A stretch of 64,000 nucleotides of DNA from Candidatus Aminicenantota bacterium. Lineage in GTDB: Bacteria; Acidobacteriota; Aminicenantia; JAMOAD01. Shown piece by piece: positions 39,878 through 47,999 of the stretch. Numbering within the stretch: position 1 is the stretch's first letter; each line of letters starts with the position of its first letter. The translations under genes and the position numbers were made by a program. A model generated the notes under the pieces. The model ran no database searches. It was given only the letters and a program-made list of their open reading frames with translations, and was not told where the DNA came from. Location of the stretch: NCBI GenBank assembly GCA_027061995.1, contig JAMOUT010000075.1:56290-120289 (forward strand). The letters run 5' to 3'.

Positions 39878-42070
39878 ATGGGAATCTTTTGGGTAGCACC
39901 CGTTAGTGCTGCACTTGCACTTATTTTCGCTTTCTTTTTTTATAAAAATGTAATGAAAGCGGATGAAGGAACTGATAAGATGAAAGAGATTGCCGAGGCT
40001 GTCAGAGTAGGAGCCAAAGCATATCTTTCTCAGCAATACAAAATTGTTGCTCTGTTTTTTATTATTACTTCCGGCTTTCTTGCCTTTCTTGCTTACGGAT
40101 TGCATGTTCAATCAGGTTGGACACCTTTCGCCTTTCTTACGGGAGGTTTTTTCTCGGCTCTCGCAGGTTATATAGGGATGACAACCGCGACCAATTCTTC
40201 GGCGAGAACAGCAAACGGAGCAAGGAAATCATTAAATGATGCACTCAGAATAGCTTTTAGAGCCGGGGCGGTTATGGGATTAACCGTAGTAGGGCTCGGA
40301 CTTGTGGATATATCCATTTGGTTTTCTGCCCTTTATTATGGCGCTCATTATAGTTTGAGAGAAACAACTGTTATCCTTCTTTCTTTTGGTATGGGAGCTT
40401 CGCTTCAAGCTCTTTTTGCCAGAGTCGGAGGGGGAATTTTTACAAAGGCGGCTGATGTTGGCGCTGACCTTGTAGGAAAAGTTGAAGCGGGAATCCCCGA
40501 AGATGACCCGAGAAATCCGGCTACAATTGCAGATAATGTCGGTGATAATGTCGGTGATGTTGCAGGTATGGGAGCTGATCTTTATGAATCATACACCGGT
40601 TCAATACTATCATCGGCGGCACTCGGGGCGGCAGCTTTTATCGCCAATAAAACACTTGCATTTAATGCGGTTATTCTCCCGATGGTAATTGCGGGACTTG
40701 GGATTCTTGCCTCAATTTTCGGAGTCTTTATGGTTAAGGCAAAGGAAAAGGCAACCCAGAAGAATCTTCTTTCAGCCTTAAACAGGGGGATATACATAAG
40801 TTCTGCTATAATAATAGTCGGTGTTTTTTTCATAGTAAAAGCAATGCTTCCCGGTAATATAGGGATAGCGGGCTCTGTTGTTTTCGGACTCATTGTAGGG
40901 CTTGTAATAGGCAAATCCACGGAATATTATACATCTTCGGGATATGCTCCTACAAGATTTGTTGCCGAGCAGACAAAAACAGGAGAAGCAACAACGATTC
41001 TTGCGGGGATGTCTCAAGCTATGATTTCAACCGCAATTCCCATTATTGCCGTTGTTATCGGTATTGTCGGAGCTTTTGTTGCAGCCGGAGGTTTTATTTC
41101 TCCCATTAAAGGACTATATGGTATAGGTGTTGCCGCCGTTGGCATGCTTTCAACCTTGGGAATAACCTTGGCAACTGATGCGTATGGTCCTGTTGCGGAT
41201 AATGCCGGTGGTAATGCCGAGATGGCTGAACTACCCGCGGATGTGAGAAAAATTACAGATGCGCTTGATGCTCTTGGAAATACCACTGCAGCTACCGGAA
41301 AAGGTTTTGCGATTGGTTCCGCCGCATTAACTGCTCTCGCCCTTCTTGCTGCTTATGTGGAAGAGGTTAGGGCAGGGCTTATAAGAGCGGTTGAACACGG
41401 AAGAGTTTTTAAAGATTTTGCAGTCCTTGCGGAAAAAAAAGGTGTTGCCGTTGTCCAATATCTTCACGGTTTAACCATAGCTGATTTTATGAAGATTTTT
41501 AAAGTTAATCTTATGAATCCTATGGTTATTTCAGGGGTATTTATCGGTGCCATGATGGCATTCTTTTTCTCGGGACTTACAATAAAAGCTGTCAGCAAAG
41601 CGGCAGGTGAGATGGTTGATGAAGTCAGGAGACAGTTTAAAGAACTTCCGGGGATAATGGATGGAACAGCTAAACCCGATTATCAATCTTGCGTTGCTAT
41701 TTCAACAAAAGGGGCTCAAAAATCCATGTTAGCACCTTCACTTGCAGCGGTTTTAGTTCCGATTTTTGTCGGGATAATATTCGGTGTTGCAGGAGTTATG
41801 GGACTTTTAATCGGTGCTTTAAGCTCCGGTTTCATCCTTGCAATCTTTATGGCAAATGCCGGTGGCAGTTGGGACAATGCTAAAAAATATATTGAAGAGG
41901 GGAATCTCGGAGGAAAAGGCTCTCCTTCGCACAAAGCCGGTGTTGTAGGAGATACTGTAGGTGATCCTCTGAAAGATACTTCAGGCCCTTCTCTTAATAT
42001 TCTGATAAAACTTATGAGCATGGTTTCCGTTGTTGTAGCGGGATTAACCGTAGCTTTTCATATTTTATAA
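39878..42070 (+). CDS. hppA: Membrane-bound pyrophosphatase, K+-dependent type
   Basis: A 730-residue, ~16-helix ion-pumping pyrophosphatase. The substrate site DVGADLVGKVEAGIPEDDPR and NPATIADNVGDNVGDVAGMG and the C-terminal DTVGDPLKDTSGPSLNIL are complete. The segment GNTTAATGKGFAIG has Ala/Gly at the positions that mark K+-dependent enzymes (K+-independent ones have Lys there). Many K+-dependent members pump Na+, others H+; which applies here is not readable without a structural alignment. Pyrophosphate energy would suit an anaerobe with Rnf. Strong AGGAGG site; it is monocistronic, ending in a long terminator. Confidence 0.96.
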   Translation: MGIFWVAPVSAALALIFAFFFYKNVMKADEGTDKMKEIAEAVRVGAKAYLSQQYKIVALFFIITSGFLAFLAYGLHVQSGWTPFAFLTGGFFSALAGYIGMTTATNSSARTANGARKSLNDALRIAFRAGAVMGLTVVGLGLVDISIWFSALYYGAHYSLRETTVILLSFGMGASLQALFARVGGGIFTKAADVGADLVGKVEAGIPEDDPRNPATIADNVGDNVGDVAGMGADLYESYTGSILSSAALGAAAFIANKTLAFNAVILPMVIAGLGILASIFGVFMVKAKEKATQKNLLSALNRGIYISSAIIIVGVFFIVKAMLPGNIGIAGSVVFGLIVGLVIGKSTEYYTSSGYAPTRFVAEQTKTGEATTILAGMSQAMISTAIPIIAVVIGIVGAFVAAGGFISPIKGLYGIGVAAVGMLSTLGITLATDAYGPVADNAGGNAEMAELPADVRKITDALDALGNTTAATGKGFAIGSAALTALALLAAYVEEVRAGLIRAVEHGRVFKDFAVLAEKKGVAVVQYLHGLTIADFMKIFKVNLMNPMVISGVFIGAMMAFFFSGLTIKAVSKAAGEMVDEVRRQFKELPGIMDGTAKPDYQSCVAISTKGAQKSMLAPSLAAVLVPIFVGIIFGVAGVMGLLIGALSSGFILAIFMANAGGSWDNAKKYIEEGNLGGKGSPSHKAGVVGDTVGDPLKDTSGPSLNILIKLMSMVSVVVAGLTVAFHIL

Positions 42071-42313: not shown

Positions 42314-44425
42314 ATGATAAATAGTAAAAATAATCATTTTGTTCTTATATTATCAATACTTGGTATAATCTTTGTAAATCTGTTATTTTTAATGGTATCA
42401 GTTAATCCGGGGCTAATTGTTTTTTCCGATATTATTTTTGCTATTTTGGAAGTCATTTTTAAATTTTTAGAACATAAAATTACCCCGTATCTGTTTTTTT
42501 TGCTCTCACCTATTTTATTGATTATTTTTTTCACCACGGATGATTTTTTAATAAGATTATCTCTTCTGTTGATTATCTCATATTTGACATATTTTATAAT
42601 CGAGGGATTTTCACTTAAAATCAATTTTAAATCTGACTGTAGAGCTGTTTATCTGCTATTTCTTTTATTTTTGTTTTTTTTAAGCTTTTTGTTTTATTTT
42701 AAAAGAATATATCTTTCGGGTGATGAACCTCACTATCTTATAGTCTCCCAAAGTTTAACGGAAGACGGGGATTTTAATCTGAAAAATAATTATGAAAATA
42801 AGAGATATCTTAAATTTCATCCGACAAAACTTGAACCTCACGCTTATAAACGAAATGGAAAATTATTATCTTTTCACCTTCCCGGTGTCTCTCTTTTAAT
42901 GACTCCTTTCTATTTTCTTTATAAATTCACAGGTTATTCCATTCCTCCGCAACTGTTTTTCAGATTATCAATATCAATTATCAATTCATTTTTCGCATTA
43001 CTTTTATATCTGATTTTCAGCTTCTTTGTCAAAGAAGAAAAAAATATTTTATCTTTTTTATTTATGCTTATGATTATTCCAGTGTCAATTCATTCCATTC
43101 ATATATATCCCGAGATACCCTCGGCGATTCTGGTCTTATCCGCAATATATTTCGGTATTTTAAAGGATAATGATCTTTTGTTCGGATTATTTATATCCCT
43201 TATTCCATGGTTTCATATTAAATATATCCCTGTTGTAATCATCATATTGATTTTTTATCTGTATAATAAAATTAAAAATAGAGATATAAAATTTCTGACT
43301 AAGTTTTTGATTTTTCCTTTCATAAGTTCAATTTTGTTTTCAATTTTCATGATTTCTCAATACGGATTTTTAAATCCGATGAAAATATTTCCGGCCGGAG
43401 ATTATATGAAAATCCCTTTAATTCAAATGCTTGAAACTTTTTTTGCTTTTATGTTTGATCAAAGAGACGGATTTTTATTTTATTCTCCCGTATATTTTCT
43501 GTTTTTTTATGCTGTTTTTAAGGTAAAAACAATCGAAAAAAGATATAAAGTGTTTTTTCTTTCAATTTTACTTATATATATGTTTTTTCACTCTATAACA
43601 ACCATTAGGGGAGCTTATGCTCCCGCAGCAAGACCAATGGTGTTTGTTATTTGGGTAGTGATTTTATTTATTGCGATTTATTTTTCGGAGAATAATCAAA
43701 GAGGGTTTATTGTTAAATCTGTTATAGGATTTACGGTTTTTTTGAATCTTATCATTCTAAATTATCCCTCTTTTATCTATCAACCGGTAATATCATCCAC
43801 AACCGAAAGAAGCTCTGCTTTATTCAGGTTTCTCGGAAGTGAAAATTTTAATTTTTACAAATTGTTCCCCTCTTTTTTAAAAACCGATAATTCATCCTAT
43901 TATGCTAATTATTTTTGGTTAGGATTGATTTTATTAATACTCCTGAACTCAAAATATGAATTTATTAAATTTAAGATGGATAAAAAAGGAAATCTTTTTG
44001 CTTCATTAATAGTGTTTTTTCTGTTTTTTTACGGAATTCTTTTGTATCCGCATGTTTACAAAGGATATTATTGGAACACGGGAAATATCGGATTCTTTGT
44101 TAATTCAAAGAATTTTATTAAGATAAATGATAAAAAATTCAGATTGAAAACGAATGAAAAATATCTGATACTTTTCGATTCTAAAAAGATGAATAAAAGG
44201 AAGGTAAAATTCAAATTATTTTCTTATAATGATAAAAAATTTAATTTAGAAGTAAAAACAGGATTAAAAGAGATAATTACAAAAGAGATAAATGGGAATA
44301 TAAAGCTTAAAATTGATGTTTTCAGATTAAAGAGAATCAAAATTTCCAATATCTATTATCCTTATATTAGTATAAAAATTGATACGAGTAAAAGGATTAA
44401 TGCAATTTATTCGATAATAGAGTAA
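42314..44425 (+). CDS. Polytopic glycosyltransferase-like membrane protein
   Basis: A 703-residue protein with about 12 membrane helices and a C-terminal soluble region rich in Lys. The loop after helix 4 carries GDEPHYL (Asp137, Glu138), the acidic motif of the GT-C (PMT/ArnT/GT39-like) superfamily that uses polyprenyl-phosphate sugars. A second motif YNLKNNYENKRY follows. It probably moves a sugar onto a lipid, protein or glycan at the outer face of the inner membrane. It stands 87 bp before the aminotransferase operon; whether it belongs with it is uncertain. Confidence 0.7.
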   Translation: MINSKNNHFVLILSILGIIFVNLLFLMVSVNPGLIVFSDIIFAILEVIFKFLEHKITPYLFFLLSPILLIIFFTTDDFLIRLSLLLIISYLTYFIIEGFSLKINFKSDCRAVYLLFLLFLFFLSFLFYFKRIYLSGDEPHYLIVSQSLTEDGDFNLKNNYENKRYLKFHPTKLEPHAYKRNGKLLSFHLPGVSLLMTPFYFLYKFTGYSIPPQLFFRLSISIINSFFALLLYLIFSFFVKEEKNILSFLFMLMIIPVSIHSIHIYPEIPSAILVLSAIYFGILKDNDLLFGLFISLIPWFHIKYIPVVIIILIFYLYNKIKNRDIKFLTKFLIFPFISSILFSIFMISQYGFLNPMKIFPAGDYMKIPLIQMLETFFAFMFDQRDGFLFYSPVYFLFFYAVFKVKTIEKRYKVFFLSILLIYMFFHSITTIRGAYAPAARPMVFVIWVVILFIAIYFSENNQRGFIVKSVIGFTVFLNLIILNYPSFIYQPVISSTTERSSALFRFLGSENFNFYKLFPSFLKTDNSSYYANYFWLGLILLILLNSKYEFIKFKMDKKGNLFASLIVFFLFFYGILLYPHVYKGYYWNTGNIGFFVNSKNFIKINDKKFRLKTNEKYLILFDSKKMNKRKVKFKLFSYNDKKFNLEVKTGLKEIITKEINGNIKLKIDVFRLKRIKISNIYYPYISIKIDTSKRINAIYSIIE

Positions 44426-44511
44426 TGTTTTCATCGGATTAAAAAATAATAATATAGTCTTCTTGATTAATCCTTATCTTTGCTATAAAATTATATTAGG
44501 AGTTCATAGTA

Positions 44512-45780
44512 TTGAGAACCATTAAAAAAGATATTATTAACAAATTCAAATTATATGTTTCTTCAGGTAAAGTTAAGTTTTATAAAAGATACGGGATGCG
44601 GTTTGTAATGGGTAAAAGGGAAGGTTCCTTTATCTCGGATATTGACGGTAAAAAGCAACTTTTGAATCTTCATTGCAATGGGGGAGTCTTTAATCTCGGG
44701 CATAGGAACAGAGAATTGATAGAGATTTTAAATAATGCAATGAAGATGTATGATATAGGGAATCATCATCTTATCAGTAAACCGAGAGCCGAGCTTGCGG
44801 AATATATCTCTTATTTAATGCCGGAGGATCTTAATTATACGATTTTCGGTGTCAGCGGAGGAGAGGCCATAGATACCGCCATAAAAATTGCCCGGGGTTA
44901 TACGGGAAAAAGAAAAATAATATCCGCAAAAGGGGGATATCACGGGCATACGGGTTTAGCTCTTGCAGCCGGAGATAAAAAATACAGAGAACCATTTAAT
45001 TCCTCCTCTTCCGATTTTCTCCAAGTTGAATTTAATAATATAAATTCTTTGGAAGAAAAAATTGATAGGGAAACGGCAGCTGTTATTTTTGAAACAATAC
45101 CCGCAACTCTCGGTATGCCTATTGCCGATAATGATTATTTTAAAAAAGTTAAAAGGATATGTGAGAAAAACGGAGCATTATTAATACTTGATGAAGTTCA
45201 ATCCGGTTTGGGAAGAACGGGAAAACTTTGGGCATTTGAACACTTTGATGTTGTTCCCGATATTGTTGTTCTGGGAAAAGGTTTATCGGGAGGGATATAT
45301 CCTATTACCGCAACTATTATAAGAAAAAATTTGGAAAAAATATTTAAGAAAGACCCTTTTATCCATATCTCAACTTTCGGAGGGGCTGAACCCGGAGCGG
45401 TTGTTGCCAAAAGAGTTCTTGAGATAGTATCAAATGAATCTTTTTTAAAAAGTGTTAATCTGAAATCAGAGTTATTCTCCCTTTATTTTGATAAATTAAA
45501 GGAAAAAGACCAGGGTTTTATAAAAGGTTTAAGAAGAATAGGTTTAATGATGGGGATAGAATTAAAAGATGATTTTTCAGGACCTGCCATGACAAAAGCG
45601 GCTTTTGATAAAGGGGTTTTATTAGTATATGCTAATAATGATAAATCCATTGTTCAGCTTTTACCCCCTTTGACAATCGGGGAAGAGGAGATAGAACTTT
45701 CTTTTGAACTATTGGAAAAATCCGTAAAAAGAGCAAAGATTATAAGATATCTGTTAAAAATAATAGGGGGATCATCATGA
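44512..45780 (+). CDS. Class III pyridoxal-phosphate aminotransferase
   Basis: A 422-residue aminotransferase of class III (acetylornithine, GABA, diaminobutyrate and glutamate-1-semialdehyde type). Seen: GVSGGEAIDTAIKIAR (phosphate site), KGGYHGHTGLALA, the PLP Asp in LILDEVQSGLGRTGKLWAFE, the Lys in LGKGLSGG and STFGGAEPGAVV. Substrate is not predictable. The start is a TTG, supported by ATTAGGAG 9 nt upstream. It overlaps the next gene by 4 nt and is the first gene of a three-gene operon with a kinase-like protein and a C69-type hydrolase. Confidence 0.88.
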   Translation: MRTIKKDIINKFKLYVSSGKVKFYKRYGMRFVMGKREGSFISDIDGKKQLLNLHCNGGVFNLGHRNRELIEILNNAMKMYDIGNHHLISKPRAELAEYISYLMPEDLNYTIFGVSGGEAIDTAIKIARGYTGKRKIISAKGGYHGHTGLALAAGDKKYREPFNSSSSDFLQVEFNNINSLEEKIDRETAAVIFETIPATLGMPIADNDYFKKVKRICEKNGALLILDEVQSGLGRTGKLWAFEHFDVVPDIVVLGKGLSGGIYPITATIIRKNLEKIFKKDPFIHISTFGGAEPGAVVAKRVLEIVSNESFLKSVNLKSELFSLYFDKLKEKDQGFIKGLRRIGLMMGIELKDDFSGPAMTKAAFDKGVLLVYANNDKSIVQLLPPLTIGEEEIELSFELLEKSVKRAKIIRYLLKIIGGSS

Positions 45781-46685
45781 ATGAGCTTAGAATACTTGAA
45801 GATTTCGAAAAAAAATTAATTCCGCATGCACCCGAAAAATCATCTGTCCGACCTGAAATAATAGGCTATGGGGAGATATCCACGATATTTAAGATAGATA
45901 GTATAAAAGGATATGCTTTTAAAAGACTCCCCCTTTTTAAAAAAAGGGAGAATGCTTTAAGATATGAAGAAAATTATAAAAAATACTGTGAATTTTTAAG
46001 AAAAGCGGGGTTAACTCTTCCTGAAGATAAAACGATTATTATTGATATTAAAAGGACCCCTATCTCTTTTTATATTGCACAGAAAGAGCTTCCCTCTAAT
46101 TCAATAGGGAATAAACTGATATTTAATATTGATGTTGAAAAGATTAAAATACTCTTTAGTAGGATTATAAAAGAGATAAAGAAAGTTTGGGAATTTAACA
46201 AAGATAATGCAGGGAGTGTAGAATTATCAATTGACGGACAACTTTCCAATTGGGCTCTTGTAGGGGAAAAACTCTTTTTCATAGATACAAGCACTCCCCT
46301 TTTTAGGTTAGAAGGGAAAGAGCAACTTGACCCCGAACCTTTGCTGAAAAGTGCACCCGGATTTTTAAAATGGATATTAAAACTGTTCTTTCTTGAAGAT
46401 GTAATGAATCGTTATTATGATGAAAGATTGGTTTACATTGATTTTGCAGCTAACCTTTATAAAGAGCAGAAAGCCGAACTTATACCTATGACACTCAAGA
46501 TTATTAACAAGAATTTATCCGAAGGTTTAAAACGGATAGAGATTGAAGAGGTTGATAAATATTATAAAGAGGATAAGATGATTTGGACGCTTTTTCTTTC
46601 ATTCAGAAAGTTTGATAGATTTATAAAAACAAAAATATTAAGAAAAAGGTATGAATTTATACTGCCGGGAAAAATAAAGAGGTAA
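45777..46685 (+). CDS. Kinase-fold protein of unknown function (APH/DUF6206-like)
   Basis: A 302-residue protein with the layout of aminoglycoside-phosphotransferase-like kinases: glycine-rich GYGEIST (30-36), Lys49 in YAFKRLP, a catalytic-loop-like DGQLSNW (Asp153, Asn158) and FIDTSTP (Asp170 in the place of the DFG Asp). The C-terminal helices are charged. It may phosphorylate a small molecule; whether it is DUF6206 is a recollection and not verified. It overlaps the aminotransferase by 4 nt and is followed 3 nt later by the C69 hydrolase, so the three work together. Confidence 0.6.
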   Translation: MNELRILEDFEKKLIPHAPEKSSVRPEIIGYGEISTIFKIDSIKGYAFKRLPLFKKRENALRYEENYKKYCEFLRKAGLTLPEDKTIIIDIKRTPISFYIAQKELPSNSIGNKLIFNIDVEKIKILFSRIIKEIKKVWEFNKDNAGSVELSIDGQLSNWALVGEKLFFIDTSTPLFRLEGKEQLDPEPLLKSAPGFLKWILKLFFLEDVMNRYYDERLVYIDFAANLYKEQKAELIPMTLKIINKNLSEGLKRIEIEEVDKYYKEDKMIWTLFLSFRKFDRFIKTKILRKRYEFILPGKIKR

Positions 46686-46688
46686 ACC

Positions 46689-47999
46689 ATGTGTGATACA
46701 TTTATAATAAAAGAAAAAGGTATGATTTTTTTCGGGAAAAATAGTGATAGGGAACCAAATGAAGCACAGCTTCTTGAACATTATCCTCCTCGTGAATTTA
46801 AAAAGGGGGAAAAGATTAAAACAACTTATCTTGAGATTGAGCAAAAGAATAGGACAAACGGGATAATAATCAGCAGGCCCTTTTGGATGTGGGGAGCTGA
46901 GATGGGAGTTAATGATAAGGGGGTTGTCATAGGGAATGAAGCTGTTTTTACAAAAATGCCGTATAGGAAAAAAGGGGTTTTAACAGGGATGGATATTTTG
47001 AGATTAGCTCTTGAAAGAGGTTCTTCCGCCGAAGATAGTGTTGATATAATAATCTCTCTTATTAATGATTACGGACAGGGGGGGATTTGCGGATTAGAAG
47101 ATAAAAGAATGGCTTATCACAATAGCTTTCTTATTGCGGATAAAAGGAAAGGGTTCGTTTTGGAAACAGCGGGTAAATTCTGGGTTTATAAAGAGGTTAA
47201 GGATTTTCATGCAATCTCAAACAGACTAACGATTGGTGAATCATTCGATAATATACATCCCGAGACAATTGATTTTGTCAGAAAAAAGGGGTGGTTAAAA
47301 AAGGGGAAGAATTTTAATTTCGGCAAAATATTTTCAGATTATCTGTTTACAAAATTTTCAGGCTCAAAACCTCGATTATCAAGAGCAATCAAACTATTAA
47401 AAGATAAAAAGGATGATTTTTCCCTTAAAGATGCTTTTTCAATTTTGCGGGATCACGGGGAAGGGGATTATAATCCTGATTCCCATTTCACGGGAGATTA
47501 TATATGTGCCCATGCCGGTAATTTTATAACAAGAAAAGCCACTCAAACCGTAAATTCTTTTGTTGTGAAAAACCAAAAAGATAAAATCGATATATGGTCA
47601 ACGGCGACTTCATCGCCATGCACAGCCATATTTAATCCGATTTCTTTTAAATATTTTCCGAATTTCGGGGATAAAGCGGATTCCCGTTTTAATAATAATA
47701 TATTTTGGTGGCAACATGAATTATTGTATAGGGAAGCTCTAAGGGATTTTTCAAACCGAATTTTGGTTTTTAAGGATGAGATTACGGAGATAGAAAATAG
47801 ATTAGTTAAAAAAATGGGGAAAAGTGATTTTACGGAAAACTCCGAATTTTACTCTGATAATATAAGGTTTTCCGCTGAAAAATACAAAGAGTGGTATAAT
47901 TTGATAAAAGAAAGAAAACCCCATAGGAGAGCCAAATTTATCTTTCGAAGTTTTTGGAACAGGCAAAATAAAAAAGCGAGATTAAATATTAAATTATAA
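46689..47999 (+). CDS. Secernin-type C69 N-terminal nucleophile hydrolase
   Basis: A 436-residue protein starting MCDTFIIKEKG, where Cys2 is the expected nucleophile after removal of Met, followed by FFGKNSDREPNEAQ, the signature of secernins and dipeptidase-like peptidase C69 enzymes. FVLETAGKFWVYKEV and a late DHGEGD segment agree with the fold. No signal peptide is present, so it is cytoplasmic. Such enzymes cleave amide bonds at an N-terminus or act as amidases or acyltransferases. Last gene of the aminotransferase operon. Confidence 0.85.
   Translation: MCDTFIIKEKGMIFFGKNSDREPNEAQLLEHYPPREFKKGEKIKTTYLEIEQKNRTNGIIISRPFWMWGAEMGVNDKGVVIGNEAVFTKMPYRKKGVLTGMDILRLALERGSSAEDSVDIIISLINDYGQGGICGLEDKRMAYHNSFLIADKRKGFVLETAGKFWVYKEVKDFHAISNRLTIGESFDNIHPETIDFVRKKGWLKKGKNFNFGKIFSDYLFTKFSGSKPRLSRAIKLLKDKKDDFSLKDAFSILRDHGEGDYNPDSHFTGDYICAHAGNFITRKATQTVNSFVVKNQKDKIDIWSTATSSPCTAIFNPISFKYFPNFGDKADSRFNNNIFWWQHELLYREALRDFSNRILVFKDEITEIENRLVKKMGKSDFTENSEFYSDNIRFSAEKYKEWYNLIKERKPHRRAKFIFRSFWNRQNKKARLNIKL

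Follow-up and report, generated by a model that had tools for sequence, protein, structure and literature searches.

A conserved trio of a class III PLP enzyme, a DUF6206 protein and a secernin-like hydrolase, possibly a catabolic module for amide-linked amino alcohols

In a 64,000-nucleotide stretch of DNA from a Candidatus Aminicenantota bacterium (assembly GCA_027061995.1, a 2.36-Mb draft; contig JAMOUT010000075.1, positions 56,290 to 120,289), hereafter called the window, three closely packed genes encode a class III pyridoxal 5'-phosphate (PLP) enzyme, a protein of DUF6206, a family without assigned function, and a secernin-like hydrolase. We found that this trio is a real conserved module, the core of which is formed by the kinase-like DUF6206 protein and the PLP enzyme, with the hydrolase as a frequent third partner. 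At slightly less than even odds (a probability of roughly 0.45), we propose that the module is catabolic and acts on an amide-linked amino alcohol or hydroxylated amine by way of an amidase, a kinase and a PLP-dependent ammonio-phospho-lyase, in that order. The three genes and the translation signal in front of them are:

44494..44511, + strand: AGGAG ribosome-binding site plus the spacer up to the TTG start, read from the sequence
44512..45780, + strand: class III fold-type I PLP enzyme, 422 amino acids, TTG start (Pfam Aminotran_3, E 5e-82)
45777..46685, + strand: DUF6206 protein, putative small-molecule kinase, 302 amino acids (PF19709, E 1.2e-23)
46689..47999, + strand: secernin-like / C69 N-terminal-nucleophile (Ntn) amidohydrolase, 436 amino acids (Pfam C69, E 2.1e-6; NF040521, E 4e-7)

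The AGGAG lies just 5' of the TTG, before which only 4 codons are open. The PLP-enzyme gene overlaps the DUF6206 gene by 4 nt (ATGA), and a gap of 3 nt separates the latter from the hydrolase gene. To judge how far this arrangement is conserved, we read 12 DUF6206 loci, four from Ca. Aminicenantes, three from Flavobacteriaceae and five from a further Bacteroidota family, which together represent about three independent lineages. In all 12 loci the gene immediately upstream of DUF6206 encodes the PLP enzyme, and in 10/12 the gene immediately downstream encodes the C69 hydrolase, while the outer flanks of the trio, the upstream gene included, vary between lineages; because adjacency is kept in this way while the flanks differ, we conclude that the module is real, with a DUF6206-PLP enzyme core and a common hydrolase. 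As the same gene order recurs in genomes from two phyla, the grouping is far beyond chance. A previous sequence-only reading of this DNA had described three genes that overlap or lie 3 nt apart, and its coordinates, the TTG start and the residues GYGEIST, K49, D153, N158, D170 and Cys2 were all accurate; its view of the three genes as one unit is borne out by the loci that we read. Of the two findings that it named as refuting, rare adjacency of the three families elsewhere and a middle protein lacking a kinase fold in a predicted structure, neither emerged from these loci or from the modest structural model described below.

DUF6206 itself is rare. Samples that contain the seed genomes gave 4 carriers among the 100 nearest relatives, 2 among 396 genomes of the phylum, 3 among 299 from the family of a Flavobacteriaceae metagenome-assembled genome and 5 among 199 from another family in the same phylum as that genome. 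Searches of viral contigs and of plasmids returned no DUF6206 match, and a weak match in one genome (G824; E 3e-4, under the cut-off) falls within the frame of an SGNH-like hydrolase and was dismissed as chance. A literature search on the trio yielded nothing relevant, and DUF6206 had no match in the paper library searched. The possibility that the trio is a defence system was rejected, there being no PADLOC match. One genome (G782; L022 3357-7870) carries a four-gene row of a tryptophan 2,3-dioxygenase (TDO) family gene, a class III gene, DUF6206 and kynureninase (TIGR01814), without C69. Tryptophan catabolism, which this row had prompted as a general role, was rejected, as the other seven trio genomes tested gave no match to the Pfam TDO model, and the C69 protein of G782 is doubtful as a trio hydrolase, since it places outside the trio clade. 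In another genome (G1187; L038 7405-8763), the C69 position is occupied by a KamA-family (lysine 2,3-aminomutase-like) radical SAM gene, which is convergent to the PLP enzyme-DUF6206 pair.

Class III transaminases use the Glu of a QGEGG motif and an Arg before EPPL/APPL to handle amine and keto acid alternately. The PLP enzyme of the window scores 276 bits against Aminotran_3 (cut-off 30.5) and retains the PLP residues Lys256 and Asp227. According to motif tables, Thr199 replaces the switch Glu and Gln382 the substrate-carboxylate Arg. All 11 trio PLP enzymes and the relatives H1-H3 carry the same two replacements; nearly all well-aligned class III enzymes of related genomes keep Glu and Arg. 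Kinase-fused class III enzymes carry Cys/Val at the Glu site and Lys at the Arg site, and the two solved phospho-lyases (5g4i and 6tor) carry Thr/Cys and Lys at these sites. In our tree, the trio PLP enzymes form their own clade (97/95), joined by the Proteobacterial H1-H4, which share Thr/Ser and Gln; the trio enzymes display the motif GKGLSGG together with Gln, compared with GKPMGN and Lys in the phospho-lyase clade. Because of the Thr/Gln replacements and the separate clade, the enzyme resembles phospho-lyases at key positions, though it is no member of their clade. Transaminase may also be the wrong annotation for other class III 'aminotransferases' that carry the signature PAT[LY]G ... 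Gln.

The middle protein matches DUF6206 (PF19709) with 84.1 bits (gathering score 30.4). A G30xG32xxS35 loop (GYGEIST in the window), K49, D153-x4-N158 and D170 are invariant in 12 DUF6206 homologues, and the spacing in these 12 proteins is kinase-like, with Lys 19 residues past the G-loop (GxGEIS) and the final Asp 12-16 residues past Asn. No sequence library assigns DUF6206 to the kinases, and Pfam APH (PF01636) gave no match at E<=1 in the window protein and none at E<=10 in three homologues. An AlphaFold2 (AF2) model was obtained for a Flavobacteriaceae homologue (52% identical) from a shallow alignment of five sequences; an earlier model from four close homologues was unusable, with a predicted local distance difference test score (pLDDT) of 44. 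In the usable model, strands and helix are ordered b-b-b-aC-b-b, as in a kinase N-lobe, and the PDB matches that Foldseek listed for it are all protein-kinase-like folds. The top matches of a second aligner (VIA) were the amicoumacin kinase AmiN, APHs, the choline kinase LicA and aminopropanol kinase, with Z 6.5-7.5 over about 200 residues and a root-mean-square deviation (rmsd) of about 5 Å. The suggestion from the letters alone that the middle protein is kinase-like is thereby made plausible, and we consider a kinase fold probable. The residue signature and the modest model together point to a putative small-molecule kinase of the APH/choline-kinase kind.

The hydrolase matches Pfam C69 with 27.4 bits (cut-off 23) and Pfam AAT below threshold (E 2.3e-4), and has no match at E<=1 to the C69 dipeptidase equivalog NF033678. 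Cys2 is the predicted nucleophile after removal of Met, and M1-C-D-T, D20, N83, N178 and R229 are invariant in 11 homologues. To our knowledge, secernins, which are present up to human, are without a well-defined enzymatic role. A secernin-like C69 gene also lies by a flavin amine oxidase gene in three Bacteroidota genomes without DUF6206 (L083, L084 and L085), two of which have a CN-hydrolase gene at the locus as well; these loci are a candidate second cassette leading from amide to amine.

We also compared the gene neighbourhoods of relatives of the trio enzymes in other settings, which include independent analogues of the trio. Thioclava plasmids combine a peptide ABC transporter, an amidase, a secernin-like C69 protein and an APH kinase (L046, L077). 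In Thioclava GXIMD2076, a class III gene follows the phosphotransferase, and in FTW29 there is no such gene beside the kinase. The nearest solved relatives of the Thioclava class III enzyme are the phospho-lyases 5g4i (E 7e-102) and 6tor (E 2e-96), and the Thioclava C69 proteins are 31-35% identical to the window hydrolase. Within the PLP clade of the trio, Burkholderia H4 is directly followed by an aldehyde dehydrogenase gene and has an APH/choline-kinase gene in its vicinity, an APH phosphotransferase gene lies three genes upstream of Pseudomonas MPC6 H2, and the rhizobial H1 and H3 are preceded by peptide ABC transporter genes and a phosphodiesterase gene. The rhizobial operon is plasmid-borne (L042 6700-9236; L044 6700-9257); its phosphodiesterase is of type I, its class III enzyme bears the PATYG/Gln signature, and at L044 DUF1045 and phnF come next. 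Aminicenantia genomes encode single chains of the PRK06148 type in which an APH kinase is joined to a class III enzyme, with or without an M23 domain (L116, L117, L118). Amide hydrolysis, phosphorylation and PLP-dependent deamination form the theme that recurs among these relatives.

The conservation of the trio, its catalytic residues, the altered class III residues and the analogous cassettes are direct observations, beside which we infer each reaction of the proposed pathway, the order and the direction. The secernin-like Ntn hydrolase would split an amide with Cys2 and release an amine; DUF6206, judged by its signature and the modest model, would then place a phosphate on a hydroxyl of the freed amine; and the PLP enzyme would eliminate phosphate and ammonia to yield an aldehyde. 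This last step would be ammonio-phospho-lyase chemistry of the kind known from the phospho-lyases of ethanolamine phosphate and 5-phosphohydroxylysine, arrived at in another clade. More tentatively, the DUF6206 proteins could be small-molecule kinases of a family so far unrecognised, whose partners are PLP phospho-lyases from a clade that evolved separately and an amidase of the secernin type; together they would form an undescribed pathway by which Aminicenantes and Bacteroidota break down N-acylated amino alcohols. If so, a bacterial secernin homologue would gain a metabolic role. A chemical order that can be tested, proposed for a module kept across lineages, gives DUF6206 and secernins alike a concrete hypothesis.

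Several observations weigh against the proposed pathway. Neither a transporter nor an aldehyde dehydrogenase gene is present in the operon of the window, and two DUF6206 loci are without an adjoining hydrolase gene. The PLP enzyme falls outside the phospho-lyase clade (100/100) in the tree, its Arg site holds Gln, whereas known phospho-lyases hold Lys, and its nearest characterised relatives are aminotransferases. As for DUF6206, its alignment to an APH profile of 26 sequences (hhalign) gave a probability below 1%, no better than controls. The AF2 model is modest (pLDDT 54.7; predicted template-modelling score 0.60), its best Foldseek match reaches only E 3e-3, and the best VIA match, AmiN, has a Z of 7.5 (rmsd 5.6 over 211 residues), a range in which the tool warns of a merely common arrangement.

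The most serious alternative, which we nevertheless regard as unlikely, is that the PLP enzyme is a true but atypical transaminase, an amine transaminase of the putrescine/PigE type that uses another amino acceptor. An N-acyl amine would then be hydrolysed and transaminated to an aldehyde, and the product or the parent compound would be phosphorylated. The nearest solved relative, the putrescine aminotransferase 4uox (E 1e-57), the presence of ArgD, PatA and PigE among the best NCBIfam models and the intact Lys256 and Asp227 all agree with this, as do the loci in which C69 lies by a flavin amine oxidase, where amide hydrolysis pairs with oxidative deamination in the absence of DUF6206. A transaminase does not sit well, however, with the disappearance of both Glu and Arg, a pair preserved in ordinary class III transaminases, nor with a kinase as the obligate core partner of the PLP enzyme and the recurrence of phosphate chemistry beside the same clade.

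A different doubt concerns DUF6206, which might have a kinase fold and be no metabolite kinase, controlling the PLP enzyme instead, for example as a regulatory kinase, an AMPylase, a glutamylase or a pseudokinase. Its lack of a profile relation to APH would fit such a role, as would the kinase-fold glutamylase SidJ among the weaker structural matches of the model. We think this improbable, given that the canonical catalytic positions are all invariant, the best structural matches are small-molecule kinases, and the same PLP clade and hydrolase pair elsewhere with bona fide APH-family genes. Least probable of all is the biosynthetic order favoured by the sequence-only reading, which would start by aminating an aldehyde or ketone, continue with phosphorylation of the product and use the hydrolase as an acyl- or amidotransferase to build a product, possibly on a scaffold made by a glycosyltransferase. 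All three enzyme classes are present, and acyltransferases occur among the C45/AAT relatives of the hydrolase, but the trio has no conserved neighbour that encodes a glycosyltransferase, carrier protein, ligase or exporter, and amination first is made less likely by the loss of the Glu-Arg pair and by analogues that appear catabolic, being sets of hydrolase, kinase and phospho-lyase with uptake transporters or aldehyde dehydrogenase.

The glycosyltransferase in question is the gene upstream of the trio:

42314..44425, + strand: membrane glycosyltransferase-like gene, outside the module (NF047440 match below cut-off; not beside the trio in the relatives read)

It ends at 44425, 86 nt 5' of the TTG, with no further gene between 44425 and 44512. 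Its match to NF047440, the LA_3751 family of putative glycosyltransferases, has an E of 1e-13 and lies under the model cut-off; the product is related at this level to the Leptospira LA_3751/LA_3752 family. The idea that it supplies the scaffold finds no parallel in the relatives, every one of which has other upstream genes, and because it is not conserved beside the trio we place it outside the system. Further upstream, positions 39878-42070 encode a membrane-bound ion-pumping inorganic pyrophosphatase (H_PPase).

Among the known systems closest to the pathway we propose are hydroxylysine kinase (HYKK) with 5-phosphohydroxylysine phospho-lyase (PHYKPL), and ethanolamine-phosphate phospho-lyase (ETNPPL), with the solved phospho-lyases 5g4i (bacterial) and 6tor (human). 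In these an APH-type small-molecule kinase is followed by a class III PLP enzyme, the order proposed for the trio, and both Glu and Arg of the class III pair are replaced, by T/C and K in the phospho-lyases and by T and Q in the trio enzyme. The trio differs in that DUF6206 is not detectably APH by sequence, in that its PLP clade is separate and nearer to putrescine aminotransferase, and in its additional secernin-like hydrolase. The APH-(M23)-class III fusions PRK06148 and PRK06149, which occur in the same bacterial class, also couple a kinase to a class III PLP enzyme, but they are single polypeptides with a phospho-lyase-type active site (GKPMGN/GKPIGN) and no hydrolase. A precedent for reassigning a class III 'aminotransferase' is PbfA, (R)-1-hydroxy-2-aminoethylphosphonate ammonia-lyase, which first drew suspicion through its genomic context and its altered key residues and was shown to be an eliminating lyase (PMC8154272). 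PbfA acts on a phosphonate and has no kinase, and the window enzyme scores under the PbfA family cut-off. The window hydrolase shares with secernin/C69 and C45/AAT Ntn hydrolases the MCDT N-terminus with its Cys2 nucleophile and the KNSDR motif, and is set apart from other secernin/C69 proteins by the clade of its own, tied to DUF6206 loci, that the trio hydrolases form. The Thioclava plasmid cassette brings together the same three enzyme classes in adjoining genes, and differs from the trio in having a true APH kinase, an enzyme of the true phospho-lyase clade and a reversed gene order.

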